Shown one piece after another: positions 19,320 to 32,358 of a DNA stretch of 33,728 bases. Within the stretch, counting starts at the first letter, position 1. The number at the start of each line of letters is the position of its first letter. Made by a program: the position numbers and the translations under genes. The notes under the pieces are model-generated. The model was not told the DNA's origin and did not search any database. It saw only the letters and a list, made by a program, of their open reading frames with translations. This stretch comes from Blastocatellia bacterium. Its GTDB lineage: Bacteria > Acidobacteriota > Blastocatellia > HR10. The DNA is taken from positions 1-33,728 of the forward strand of contig DATLZR010000098.1 in assembly GCA_035573895.1 (NCBI GenBank), read 5' to 3'.

Positions 19320-21860
19320 ATGAGAAAGACGCTCGCTTTGATTGCCACTTTAGCCTTCGGCATAGGGATTCGGCCGTCGCCGGTTGGGATGGCAGGCGGA
19401 GACGGGACCATCTCATCAACGTCTTTCGCACCTAGAGCCGCTCAGGTCGGCTTCGCCGTCATCGGCATTTCCCCCGCGCCGGAGGCGACCAATGTTCCGG
19501 TGACGACGACCATCATCGTCACTTTTAACCTGCCGTTGGTAGCGTCATCGGTGACGACCCAAACGTTCACACTCGCGGCCCTGACTGGCGTCGCAAGCGT
19601 TCCCGTCGCGGGTACGATAGCTGTTCTGGGATCAACGGCCACGTTTCGGCCTTTGATGGCCTTGTCGCCGCTGACAAATTATCAGGTCAGGATCGTCGGC
19701 GGACCCAGAGGAGTTCGCGGCAGGGATCCACAGGGATCAATCTTCAGCCTGGAGAAAGATTTTCTCAGTACTTTTCGAACGGGGGAAGCTACCGGGGGCG
19801 GCACGTCGGTGCGTGCGAGAAATGGAGGGATTGTGACCGATCCTCGCACCGGCGCATCGGCCTCGATCCCACCAAACACGCTGAAAACTGACGCGCGCGT
19901 CCGCATCCTGACGCTCGACTCGGCAGCGCAGATCGGTCAGGTGGATAATAGCTGCGGCGTCTCCATTCGGCCCGACGAGCCGTTGCCGGGCGTAAATGGG
20001 TTTCTGCGCGTTTCCGAAATCGTACGGTATGAGGTTCAGCCCTGCGGTTCCGTCGCATTCGGGCCGAGTATGACGTTGCGATTTCCGCTCATTTTTCCTT
20101 TCAAGGGGACGCTTCCGATCGGCACGGTGGTTCGCGTCTTTGAACTGGGGCGCTCGGCGAATGGTCAGCTTGTCTTCCGTGATACGGGAGTCCCCGCCAA
20201 GGTGATCGGAAGTTTTCTTACGGGCACGGCAGCGATTGTGCCGGGAATTCCTGTTTTCGGCACGTTCGCCGCGTTCCTGCCGGTGACAAATTCTGCGAAG
20301 ACCACGCGGTGGTATGGTGATGAGGAGCAAAGCGGGACTTTCTTGAGGTCTTCTTCAGTCGTTGCCAACGCCATGCACGCGCTCTATTTCCCCCTGGTGC
20401 TCGAGTCCGATGGGCGACGGACGAAAATTTCGGTTGTGAACCCCACAACGAATCCGGTTGATGTTAACTTTGTGGCTTATACACCAGCGGGGGATAAGTC
20501 CGTCACCGTTGCTATTCGACTCGACGGAGGCCGCCAGTTCTCGCTGCGTGTGGGAGAGGCCTTTCCCGGGTTCACGCGGGGAGCAGTTGTCGTTCTCTCG
20601 AACGAGGCCATCACCGGCTTTTACGAGATCGTCAACGAATACGACAAGCCGACGCTCATGGCCGGAGCTGCTGCCGTGCGTTCGGCTCAAGCAGCGATGG
20701 TCTTTCCCGTGATCATGACGCTCGGAAATGATGCCACGGAAGTCCATCTCTTCAATCCTTCGTCACAGCCGGTGCGCGTGAGTGTCAAGGGATACGATGC
20801 GACGGGCGCTCCGGTCAGTCCCACCGATGGTTCGGGATCACCGGTGACGGATTTCGAACTGCCTCCCTTCGGCACATATGTGGTCTCCAGCCGGGACCCG
20901 AGTGCAAACACCGGTCCGGCATTCCTTTCGCTGGCCCAGCTCAATGGAGGCTATTTGATCGTCCAGTCACTTGACGCAACCCATGGACTCGTTGGGGCTG
21001 AAATTTTCGGCACGGAAACGGCGTCTCAACGTACCGTGGCTGTGGTCAACGGCCTTTCGCTTCCCTCCGGCTGCGTCCTTGTGAACCCCGGCGATGGGGC
21101 CTGTCACGTTGATTCGTCGCCCGAGTCCGAAATTCCCGAGGCCGTGCGTCAGCATACACTTTACGGCCTTCATTTCGATGATCCTCCAGCAGGGGCCGAA
21201 CTCCTTCTCATCAATGTCAGCGATCAACCGGCTCAGGTTGCCATAAGCGCTTTCCGCGAGGACGGAAGCTTTCGGGGGAGCTTTCCGGCAAGCGGATTTC
21301 TCGTGCCGGATCTGCCTGCTCACGGGGTCTTGCGCCTTGATCTTCCGGCGAAACTGGGATTCCATCCGGCTCCCGGCTACATTCGCGTCGAGGACCAAAA
21401 TTCGGCGCTCGTCGGAGTCATCATCAATTTTGACGCCACGAGCGGACGGTACAAGACGGTCCTGCCACTCGTTCCCGATGATCCACGCCTCGCTCAGTCC
21501 AACGTCACGACGTTTCTCTCCCGTGTGCAGCTCGATCCTTCCTCCTCTGCAGAACCGCGAATGGTGACGGGTCTGATCGTGTTCAACCCTAATAACAACA
21601 GTGTCCCTTTCACGTTGCGGATTCGAGACAATGCCGGGCGCGTGCGGAGCACATCGGCGACGCTCGTGGCCAGAGGAATGTTCATTCGGTCACGGTCAGC
21701 GGTGAGTTTCCCGACGACAGACAACGGCTATGTTGAAATGCAAACAACAGGTGCGCTTTTGCCCGGCACCGGGGCGCGCCTCATCCTCGTTGGCATTTAT
21801 CGGGCCAGAGGATCAAGTGGAATTCACGTGTCCTCGCCAGTGCTGGAGCAAACCAGGTAG
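19320..21860 (+). CDS. Secreted Ig-like repeat protein, paralog A
   Basis: An 846-residue exported protein. ATG 19320 has GGGAGG eight bases upstream. A signal peptide (about 1-26) is followed by a bacterial Ig-like Big_5/SbsA-type domain (about 46-150, ISPAPEATNVPVTTTIIVTF and STFRTGE). A segment with VTDPRTGASASIPPNTL resembles the IP-x-x-L pattern of ZU5-like domains. The C-terminal half has four divergent beta modules, each opening with an N-P or N-V turn: VVNPTTNPVDVNFVAYTPAG, LFNPSSQPVRVSVKGYDATG, LINVSDQPAQVAISAFREDG and VFNPNNNSVPFTLRIRDNAG. Two pairs of Cys may form disulphides. Paralog B lies directly downstream. The stop codon TAG is the beginning of a palindromic repeat. Function is unknown; a surface or matrix protein is likely. 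Confidence 0.8.
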   Translation: MRKTLALIATLAFGIGIRPSPVGMAGGDGTISSTSFAPRAAQVGFAVIGISPAPEATNVPVTTTIIVTFNLPLVASSVTTQTFTLAALTGVASVPVAGTIAVLGSTATFRPLMALSPLTNYQVRIVGGPRGVRGRDPQGSIFSLEKDFLSTFRTGEATGGGTSVRARNGGIVTDPRTGASASIPPNTLKTDARVRILTLDSAAQIGQVDNSCGVSIRPDEPLPGVNGFLRVSEIVRYEVQPCGSVAFGPSMTLRFPLIFPFKGTLPIGTVVRVFELGRSANGQLVFRDTGVPAKVIGSFLTGTAAIVPGIPVFGTFAAFLPVTNSAKTTRWYGDEEQSGTFLRSSSVVANAMHALYFPLVLESDGRRTKISVVNPTTNPVDVNFVAYTPAGDKSVTVAIRLDGGRQFSLRVGEAFPGFTRGAVVVLSNEAITGFYEIVNEYDKPTLMAGAAAVRSAQAAMVFPVIMTLGNDATEVHLFNPSSQPVRVSVKGYDATGAPVSPTDGSGSPVTDFELPPFGTYVVSSRDPSANTGPAFLSLAQLNGGYLIVQSLDATHGLVGAEIFGTETASQRTVAVVNGLSLPSGCVLVNPGDGACHVDSSPESEIPEAVRQHTLYGLHFDDPPAGAELLLINVSDQPAQVAISAFREDGSFRGSFPASGFLVPDLPAHGVLRLDLPAKLGFHPAPGYIRVEDQNSALVGVIINFDATSGRYKTVLPLVPDDPRLAQSNVTTFLSRVQLDPSSSAEPRMVTGLIVFNPNNNSVPFTLRIRDNAGRVRSTSATLVARGMFIRSRSAVSFPTTDNGYVEMQTTGALLPGTGARLILVGIYRARGSSGIHVSSPVLEQTR

Positions 21861-21938
21861 CGCGGGCTTTCGAGTTTGCGTGACGTGGCGCAGACTTTCT
21901 AATCTGCGGTAACGTAAGGCGGACATTCAAGTCCGCGG
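21858..21938. repeat. Cluster of three palindromic repeats (REP-like) between the paralogs
   Basis: Three units lie in tandem: GTAGCGCGGGCTTTCGAGTTTGCG (given here in parts: GTAGCGC, GGGCTTTCGAG, TTTGCG; 21857-21880), CGCAGACTTTCTAATCTGCG (21889-21908), and GCGGAC/GTCCGC around ATTCAA (21919-21936). Each ends near CGGT or a similar spacer. The first unit supplies the stop codon of the preceding gene. They share the core of copies at 22525, 29096 and 32312. Confidence 0.75.
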
Positions 21939-21957: not shown

Positions 21958-24447
21958 ATGAAGGGACTCCGGTGGACAAGCATTCTTCTGCTGGTTGTTT
22001 TTCTGGCGAGCACAAGTCCCTCTGCTTCAGTGCAACTGCCGCTAGCCGTAGTCAGCATCTCACCGGCTCCAGGGGCAACGGATGTTGACCCTGAAACGTC
22101 GGTCGTCGTGACCTTCAATTATCCTCTTATCCCGCAGTCGGTGACGCCCAGTACCTTCCTCGTCCAGCGGATCGAGGGGATCATTCCTATCCCCGTTGTC
22201 GGAATCATTACCGTGTTCGGGAGCGTGGCAACATTTCGTCCCCTCACACCACTTGCAGAGCTGACCACCTATCGGATCGTGCTTAAAGGGGGAACCGGTG
22301 GAATTCTCGGGAGCAACGAGCAGTTTATGCCGAGCGATTTCGTGAGCACGTTCCGAACTGGGCGAAAGAGCGGTGGGACGCCGGTTGATTTTACTCAGGG
22401 AGCAACGGTGACCGATCCTCAAACCGGTGCATCCACCGAGATTCCACCCTATACGCTGAAGGAGGATGCCACGATTTCCATAGTTGTAGACCCCTCTGAC
22501 TTGGGGTCAAGTGGCGAAGAAAACCGCAGGCTCGAAAGCCTGCGCTACAGCGGCTCGTTGCCGTCGGGAGATTCGTTCCCTTCGGTGGAGGGAATGGTCC
22601 GTGTAACGCGAGTCGTGCGATTTGAAGTTGACCCGCCGGGGCTGACTGCCTTTGGGCCGGGGATGAAGATTTCCCTTCCTTTGCTCTCTGAGCACGTGGG
22701 ACGACTACCCCAGGGAACAACTCTCCGGCTCTTTCAACTGGCTCTCCGGTCCGACGGTAGGGAGGAGGAGCCGGTGTTCGTAGATACCGGCATACCGGCG
22801 GTCGTTAGCACAAGAGGTATCTTCGGCCCGACAGTAGCGATTTCCCCGGATGTTCAAACGTTTGGCACCTATGCTGCTTTTCAAGAAATCTCCGCTCAGG
22901 GAGTTAATCTGAGCGCGGCACCTGTTCGGCAGGATCAAGGGTCCCAGCTCATTTTTCCCATTGTTGAGCAGAGCGGAGAACGCGCGAGCCGTCTATCTCT
23001 GGCCAACATGAATGTCGCCGAACCGACGACAGTGGAGCTTCACGCCTATACTCCGACAGGCGATCTCTACAGGACGGTCAGCCGGATGATTCCGGCCGGT
23101 CAGGCGGCTGCATTTCTTGTGTCGGACCTCTTCCCCGGATTCTCAACGGGAGCAATTATCGCGCGCGCGGAGGCAGGGCCGATTCATGGTCAGATCGAGA
23201 TCGCAGATGATTTTTCTCGGCCGGGAGTTCTTGCCGCCGGTGATGCCGTTACGACCGTGCCGTCGGCTCTGGTCTTTCCTGTTATTGCAACATCGAGCGG
23301 CCGGTTTACCGAGATTCATCTGTTCAATCCCTTTGATGAACCCGTCAGCGTCATAATCAAAGCCTTTGATCGGGAAAGGAAACCGGTGACGCTCACCAAC
23401 TCGGCGGGCGAGTCGCTCACGGTTGTCAAAATCCCCCCGCACGGCAAGGTAGTAGCGGCTTGCTCCGGTAGTGGCTGCGAACGTCGGACGCAAGCGCAGG
23501 ATGTCGTGATTCCTCTCGATCGCCTCGATGGGGGCTATGTGCTCGCCTTTGGCGATGATCCATCAAAGGGAGTTGTGGGAGCCGAGCTATTCGGAGAGAC
23601 GACAGGCGGTCGGCGCACTCTGACGATGGTTGCCTCGGGTCCGCTCCCCCGTGGGTGTGTGATTCGAGGAGTAACGGCTACGGGCTGCCGGGTGAGCGAA
23701 GACCCGCTTGATCCCGCGTTCGTTCCAGATGTTGCTCGTCAACATACGCTCTATGCCCCTCATTTTGAAGACTCACCGGCGACGGCGGAGATTGTCCTGG
23801 TTAACGTCAGCGACGTTACAGTCCCAGCGGCCTTCACCGCGTTCCGCGAAGATGGAAGTTTTCGCGCAAGCTATCCCGCGTCGGGTTTCTTCTTGCTTGA
23901 ACCACACCAGGTCGTGCGATTGCCGGTACAGACACTTTTAGGGTTCAATCCCGCGCCAGGCTATGTTCGGGTTGAGGATCCACTTTCTGCTCTCGTGGGA
24001 GCTCTCATCAATCAGCGCACTACCTCCCCACCATATCTCTCTGCGATTCCTCTCATCGCAGACGATCCTCAGATTGCGCAGTCTCCGTCGGTTTTGTTTC
24101 TCTCGCGAATTCAACTTGATCCCACGGCGACAATCCCCCGGCTGACGACCGGCCTCGTTGTGTTCAATCCCGGCAACAATGCAAATCCCTTTGCCGCGAT
24201 CGTGAGATCAGGAGATGGACGGACGAATCGGGTGGATCAATCGGTCACGAAGCGGGGAGTTTTGACTCGGTGGCGCGGTTCCCTCTCGGTTGCTTATCCG
24301 ACAGTCCGTGAGGGAATTCTTGAGATACGATCCACGAAACCGGAGACAGCCGGGGAAACTCGGCGACTGATCGTCGTCGGCATTTACCGTGCGACAATAC
24401 AGTCGGGATCGTCGTTCGCTTTGAGCACAGCTGTGATCGCTCATTGA
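21958..24447 (+). CDS. Secreted Ig-like repeat protein, paralog B
   Basis: An 829-residue homologue of the preceding protein over its whole length. ATG 21958 follows GGAGGGG by six bases. The signal peptide is about residues 1-25 (KGLRWTSILLLVVFLAS). A Big_5-like domain (VVSISPAPGATDVDPETSV, TFRTGRKSGG) is followed by TDPQTGASTEIPPYTL. The same four beta modules are present: LANMNVAEPTTVELHAYTPTG, LFNPFDEPVSVIIKAF, LVNVSDVTVPAAFTAFREDG and VFNPGNNANPFAAIVRSGDG. At about residues 187-198 (NRRLESLRYSG) a palindromic DNA repeat is translated; paralog A has a shorter loop there. The Oar-like receptor starts 42 bases downstream, so the two could share a transcript. Retention of two diverged copies suggests different ligands or a heteromeric complex. 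Function is unknown. Confidence 0.8.
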   Translation: MKGLRWTSILLLVVFLASTSPSASVQLPLAVVSISPAPGATDVDPETSVVVTFNYPLIPQSVTPSTFLVQRIEGIIPIPVVGIITVFGSVATFRPLTPLAELTTYRIVLKGGTGGILGSNEQFMPSDFVSTFRTGRKSGGTPVDFTQGATVTDPQTGASTEIPPYTLKEDATISIVVDPSDLGSSGEENRRLESLRYSGSLPSGDSFPSVEGMVRVTRVVRFEVDPPGLTAFGPGMKISLPLLSEHVGRLPQGTTLRLFQLALRSDGREEEPVFVDTGIPAVVSTRGIFGPTVAISPDVQTFGTYAAFQEISAQGVNLSAAPVRQDQGSQLIFPIVEQSGERASRLSLANMNVAEPTTVELHAYTPTGDLYRTVSRMIPAGQAAAFLVSDLFPGFSTGAIIARAEAGPIHGQIEIADDFSRPGVLAAGDAVTTVPSALVFPVIATSSGRFTEIHLFNPFDEPVSVIIKAFDRERKPVTLTNSAGESLTVVKIPPHGKVVAACSGSGCERRTQAQDVVIPLDRLDGGYVLAFGDDPSKGVVGAELFGETTGGRRTLTMVASGPLPRGCVIRGVTATGCRVSEDPLDPAFVPDVARQHTLYAPHFEDSPATAEIVLVNVSDVTVPAAFTAFREDGSFRASYPASGFFLLEPHQVVRLPVQTLLGFNPAPGYVRVEDPLSALVGALINQRTTSPPYLSAIPLIADDPQIAQSPSVLFLSRIQLDPTATIPRLTTGLVVFNPGNNANPFAAIVRSGDGRTNRVDQSVTKRGVLTRWRGSLSVAYPTVREGILEIRSTKPETAGETRRLIVVGIYRATIQSGSSFALSTAVIAH
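22525..22544. repeat. In-frame palindromic repeat within paralog B
   Basis: CGCAGGCT (22525-22532) and AGCCTGCG (22537-22544) are perfectly complementary around CGAA. On the minus strand the sequence reads CTGTAGCGCAGGCTTTCGAG and onwards, which matches intergenic copies at 21858 and 29096 beyond the stem itself. It is therefore a dispersed repeat rather than a chance palindrome. It encodes RRLESLRYS. Confidence 0.75.
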
Positions 24448-28994: not shown

Positions 28995-29370
28995 CAAGCC
29001 CGGGGAGCGAATCGCCAAGCGGATCGGGTTCAACGCTCCTGAGGGGCGTGGTCATATTCTTGAGGAGAGGGCAACCATCCCCCTGTACGGCACCTGTAGC
29101 GCCGGCTTTCGAGCCTCCCCTTTTTCGCAGACGGGAAAGTTCGTACCCCATTTGTGTGAGAGTTGGAACTCATGTAAGGCTCCTGCCGGGCTAACTTCAG
29201 GTGAAACGACTGGCGAGCGTTTTTCCCCGTTTTGATCTTCACTCAATGGGTGAGATGACCCGTGGGTCGGAGAAGTCAGATCCGGCGCAGGGCATACGTG
29301 CTGGCGTGCAAGTGGCTCTTTCGTAATTCCTTAGACCGCCATATTCTCCGCCTCAGAGGACAGTTTGAGA
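28995..29370 (+). other. Intergenic region before the metal locus
   Basis: About 375 bases without a convincing gene. It contains the degenerate palindromic repeat at 29096-29120, small dyads (for example GAGTT/AACTC near 29160) and, just beyond, the sigma-54-like promoter. Frames on both strands have arbitrary composition. Confidence 0.5.
29096..29120. repeat. Degenerate copy of the palindromic repeat
   Basis: TGTAGCGCCGGCTTTCGAGC, continuing CTCCCC, differs from the minus strand of the in-gene copy at 22525-22550 at only a few positions, including the shared TGTAGCGC flank. The stem is partly broken. Confidence 0.6.
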
Positions 29371-32295: not shown

Positions 32296-32311
32296 TTCTC
32301 AGCACACAGGG

Positions 32312-32358
32312 CGCAGACTTTCGAGTCTGCGGTCGTGCATAAACTCGAAAGCTTACAC
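32312..32358. repeat. Two palindromic repeats between the efflux genes
   Basis: The first is CGCAGACT (32312-32319), TTCG and AGTCTGCG (32324-32331), a perfect 8-bp stem followed by GGT as in the 21889 copy. The second, in reverse orientation, is a weaker dyad around CTCGAAAGC (32344-32352). They form a head-to-head pair 16 bases after the TolC-family stop codon. Confidence 0.7.

Follow-up and report, generated by a model that had tools for sequence, protein, structure and literature searches.

A GTAG-class REP element lies in frame inside one of two tandem secreted-looking paralogs of an acidobacterium

REPs of the GTAG class are recognized by an unpaired GTAG at one end (with the variants GYAG, GYRG, GTRG, GTMG and GTGG), a stem of 5–13 bp in which alternative complementary bases occur and a loop of 2–20 nt (PMC3733652). 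Intragenic copies of GTAG-tagged REPs have been described and are most numerous in Opitutus terrae (Di Nocera et al. 2013, PMC3733652), and RPE-4 and RPE-6 of R. conorii are intragenic repeats of the CGTC class (PMC3733652). Here we analyse a repeat copy within a 33,728-nucleotide stretch (the window) of a 3.9-Mb acidobacterial draft genome (G000; 184 contigs, 97% complete), in which two paralogous genes stand in tandem: paralog A (19320–21860, plus strand; 846 amino acids) and paralog B (21958–24447, plus strand; 829 amino acids), the latter intact and secreted-looking.

The initial annotation held that a dispersed palindrome is translated in frame inside paralog B as RRLESLRYS, and both the dispersal and the frame were borne out. 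The element, GTAGCGCAGGCTTTCGAGCCTGCG, occupies 22525–22548 on the minus strand and scores 38.9 bits with the weight matrix derived from this genome, with a perfect 8-bp stem and an intact GTAG foot. On the plus strand, the palindrome reads CGCAGGCT-CGAA-AGCCTGCG at 22525–22544; the foot is TGTAGCGC on the minus strand, corresponding to GCGCTACA at 22543–22550. The REP proper measures 24 nt, or exactly eight plus-strand codons (CGC AGG CTC GAA AGC CTG CGC TAC), which encode RRLESLRY, residues 190–197 of paralog B, in a frame running E-E-N-[R R L E S L R Y]-S; the final S of the annotated segment belongs to the flank. The element lies 567 nt from the start of the gene and 1,896 nt from its end. 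Immediately upstream of the hairpin is GCGAAGAAAAC (22514–22524, plus strand), which is A-rich like the spacers of REP pairs (for example, AAGAAC, GAAAAC and AAAGAAAA) and may have arrived with the REP, such that the inserted or replaced piece may slightly exceed 24 nt. A REP dimer was rejected as the source of the insert, as neither a full nor a degenerate second REP could be detected upstream in paralog B, the best score there (-29.8 bits) being no better than that of ordinary window DNA.

Searched without mismatches, the palindrome has 10 genomic occurrences and a reversed-pattern control has none. The consensus GCGCRGRCTTTCNAGYCTGCG, allowing up to three mismatches, gave 219 genomic matches (122 + 97) compared with 2 (2 + 0) for the reversed control, a total that counts both strands and may enter a few near-perfect palindromes twice. 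A weight matrix was built from copies with at most two mismatches and applied at a threshold of 14 bits to 1.94 Mb of the genome (about half, read in stretches and including 166 of the 219 pattern matches). It returned 187 elements and none in the reversed sequence, although part of this DNA was chosen for holding listed copies and is therefore enriched, so that density there differs from the genome average. The family consensus, GTAG-CGCRGRCT-TTCN-AGYCTGCG, has a foot left unpaired, a stem of 8 bp and a loop of 4 nt, and stop codons occur in only one of its six reading frames. Foot variants among the 187 copies include GTAG (77), GTGG (36), GTCG (18) and GCAG (10), with GTAG in the paralog B copy. 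Stem pair 9:18 is GC in 78 copies and AT in 75, and pair 7:20 is AT in 83, GT in 48, AC in 16 and GC in 13; with both pairs varying in this way, pairing is conserved by compensatory change. Close neighbours are inverted in the +- arrangement, feet outward, in 45 of 85 cases and in the -+ arrangement in 11, with a spacing within REP pairs of 3–10 nt as a rule. The tag, the stem and loop with alternative pairs, the copy number, the mostly extragenic location and the dimers with outward GTAG were all found in this family, which on its sequence anatomy is a GTAG-class REP.

Six more copies lie within the window. Three stand in tandem on the plus strand at 21857–21880 (33.9 bits), 21885–21908 (intergenic; 31.8 bits) and 21914–21937 (diverged; 16.3 bits), and the GTAG foot of the first supplies the stop codon of paralog A (TAG, 21858–21860). 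An intergenic inverted pair is formed by 29096–29119 (plus strand, 20.4 bits) and a diverged copy at 29126–29149 (minus strand, 17.8 bits), and a further intergenic copy is found at 32308–32331 (plus strand, 30.6 bits).

Copies were placed relative to genes with a simple purpose-made hexamer gene finder, which predicted about 85% of the DNA to be coding. Across the 1.94 Mb, 162 of the 187 copies were intergenic, 14 sat on a gene edge and 11 fell within predicted ORFs. Ten of these 11 were within roughly 130 nt of a predicted start or roughly 60 nt of a stop, leaving the paralog B copy as the only one of the 187 deep in a gene. For a 24-mer placed at random, the probability of lying 150 nt or more inside a gene is 59%, which by chance would put around 60 of the 102 clusters in such a position; a single deep copy against this expectation means that the REP is strongly avoided in, or purged from, gene interiors. 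The suggestion in the initial annotation that the repeat 'can be fixed in genes' thus goes too far as worded, given that only one of the 187 copies is mid-gene and that it comes from a single genome of the lineage.

Other in-ORF copies were rejected as true insertions: those in L052 and L071 form C-terminal tails, those in L054, L066, L067, L050 and L064 lie near predicted starts, where start calls are uncertain, and that in L078 sits in a poorly coding end. Pfam scans of five of these ORFs (L052, L071, L054, L067 and L066) placed the REP copies outside the matched domains. The tails in L052 (630–684) and L071 (2991–3014) are read in frame in glycosyltransferase and aminotransferase genes, and both lack the foot TAG, their first foot being GCAG. 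In 11 genes of the 1.94 Mb, paralog A among them, the TAG of a REP foot is the stop codon.

The family is near background in same-family genomes, with the exception of one near-perfect cluster in G001, indicating that it expanded in or near the source lineage. This lone cluster (G001:C25:6133-6242) consists of four near-perfect copies in a genome otherwise without the family, possibly through horizontal transfer or as a relic. Two same-class genomes, G017 and G021, carry related yet distinct REP subfamilies (for example, GTACCGCAGRCKGTCTAGYCTGCG in G021), with many inverted pairs about 35–80 nt apart, start to start. A search for a RAYT or Y1 transposase (PF01797) gave no match in the source genome, where a gene could have been missed in a 97%-complete draft of 184 contigs, and thus yielded no REP-flanked Y1 transposase gene of the kind that marks a RAYT-mobilized REP (REPtron). 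The same search placed 31 of 39 genomes above the cut-off, most members of the class with several matches, and found none in four of five same-family genomes. The RAYT may have been lost from the source genome, left unassembled or never present; a REP-rich genome apparently without one poses a small puzzle about REP movement there.

We compared paralog B with six homologs, namely paralog A and five loci from three same-order genomes. The REP segment was absent from all six, indicating that it entered paralog B by insertion or by replacement. Paralog A is indeed shorter at this site, as the initial annotation had stated, but by a net 6 residues rather than about seven. When the eight codons were deleted in silico, the local BLASTP score against paralog A rose slightly, from 125 bits to 129. 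All six homologs have a cysteine at the insert site and a second one downstream at 'PC' or 'QC', a pair that may form a disulfide, and paralog B has neither (window 22525–22660). Because the net difference is 6 rather than 8 residues and both cysteines are missing, the change would be an insertion accompanied by a small deletion, or else a replacement, and the exact borders of the piece are uncertain. Protein identity between paralog B and its homologs is only around 37–42%. No homologs of the gene were found in five same-family genomes and no other genomes of the same genus turned up, so there is no near ortholog that displays the empty site. A protein scan of genome contigs with P0001 alone gave no match; with the alignment, it found two Acidobacteria loci, apparently the same genes as in G007 and G009.

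Paralog B comprises a Big_5 domain (residues 28–134), a ZU5/GAIN-like domain (around residues 135–311) and a DUF5719-like part. AlphaFold, run on the 177-residue domain with 5 sequences, modelled it as a beta-sandwich (best model pLDDT 78; range of the five models 40 to 78), and Foldseek matched the model to ankyrin ZU5 and adhesion-GPCR GAIN domains (best E 9e-4, TM 0.55). The REP-encoded residues are domain residues 56–63, within a stretch of pLDDT below 50 (domain residues 49–71; codons at 22504–22572, plus strand), and are predicted to sit in a floppy, disordered loop of the ZU5-like domain. In paralog A, which is without the insert and has both conserved cysteines, pLDDT in the same loop falls below 50 for residues 47–53 only.

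We put at roughly 85% the probability that a lineage-specific GTAG-tagged REP inserted in frame into paralog B and was tolerated in a disordered loop, probably with near-neutral effect. One REP of the family, presumably placed by a transposition-like event, would have entered in frame, and with 24 nt making eight codons and five of six frames open, the reading frame would have survived. The loop that received it would be long and disordered, part of a ZU5-like beta-sandwich in a paralog that, from its coding score, is weakly constrained; eight added residues would do little harm there, so that the gene stayed open. The paralog B protein is presumably made and working, and the REP probably has no function in it, a selfish repeat left unpurged. 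The perfect consensus hairpin, despite the low protein identity to homologs (around 37–42%), together with the expansion of the family near the lineage, suggests that the insertion is young. In-frame landings of a REP in mid-gene are rare, and intragenic GTAG REPs were already described in 2013 (PMC3733652).

The loss from paralog B of both cysteines present in all six homologs indicates that loop architecture was altered beyond its length and, with the gene still open, could be read as recruitment, in which RRLESLRY and the missing cysteines changed the domain usefully and paralog B was neofunctionalized. We regard this as improbable: the loop is predicted by AlphaFold to be disordered, and the coding score of paralog B (2.6th percentile, among the lowest of long genes) fits relaxed constraint better than recruitment. 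Equally doubtful is a reading in which the REP took the place of a segment of the ZU5-like domain that bore a cysteine and was possibly anchored by a disulfide, and was then kept, with a selfish palindrome thereby giving one tandem secreted paralog a new functional loop.

A role for the hairpin in paralog B mRNA or DNA—as an attenuator, an mRNA processing signal or a gyrase site—would account for the perfect stem, and the local RNA fold predicted around the insert has the hairpin as its stable core (z -2.3). However, any recent insertion would still have its stem, a structure in mid-gene would be predicted to impede expression, and the other copies shun gene interiors, making this role a long shot too; nothing in the data favours either it or recruitment. 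Charged or polar loops can be rich in R, E and S, but chance resemblance or convergent codons with no insertion at all would have to produce agreement with the consensus over all 24 nt, foot included (38.9 bits), when the control contained nothing of at least 14 bits in 1.94 Mb, and we consider that explanation negligible. The near-neutral insertion of a REP in frame therefore remains our preferred reading.

Under the preferred reading, the locus is a clean, countable case of an 'extragenic' repeat entering a protein, with eight codons, an open frame, a disordered loop and a tandem paralog. In the 1.94 Mb, one of 187 copies is mid-gene where random placement would put about 60%, a contrast that roughly gauges avoidance or purging. 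The initial annotation likened the repeat to the protein-coding palindromes of Rickettsia, and the likeness holds functionally, in that a palindromic repeat is read in frame inside protein genes, but not anatomically: the Rickettsia elements bear a CGTC tag, or are of the RPE-1 type, and have several copies in coding genes, whereas here a single mid-gene element of 24 nt has a GTAG tag. RPE-1 is described as longer than this REP. The present family was not found in frame in many protein genes, and by its tag it is of neither the CGTC nor the RPE-1 type. The Pseudomonas REPINs and RAYT-associated REPs (PMC3116915) share inverted, mostly extragenic REP pairs with our family, but next-neighbour peaks in SBW25 are at 71 and 110 bp (PMC3116915) compared with spacers mostly of 3–10 nt here, and no Y1 transposase was detected in the source genome. 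The G021 subfamily, from the same class, has a similar stem and inverted pairing but a mostly GTAC foot, another loop and longer spacers. Closest is the GTAG REP superfamily (PMC3733652), which has, as here, a GTAG foot, an 8-bp stem, a short loop, subfamilies whose stems differ by complementary base changes, pairs that are mostly inverted and have GTAG outermost, a foot TAG serving as the stop codon of neighbouring genes and occasional in-ORF copies; our case differs in its acidobacterial host and in that no RAYT gene was found. The intragenic GTAG REPs, for example those of Opitutus terrae (PMC3733652), are thus a nearer precedent than Rickettsia. They differ in number: O. terrae ranks first in that survey for intragenic GTAG copies, and the acidobacterial genome holds only one mid-gene copy among 187.
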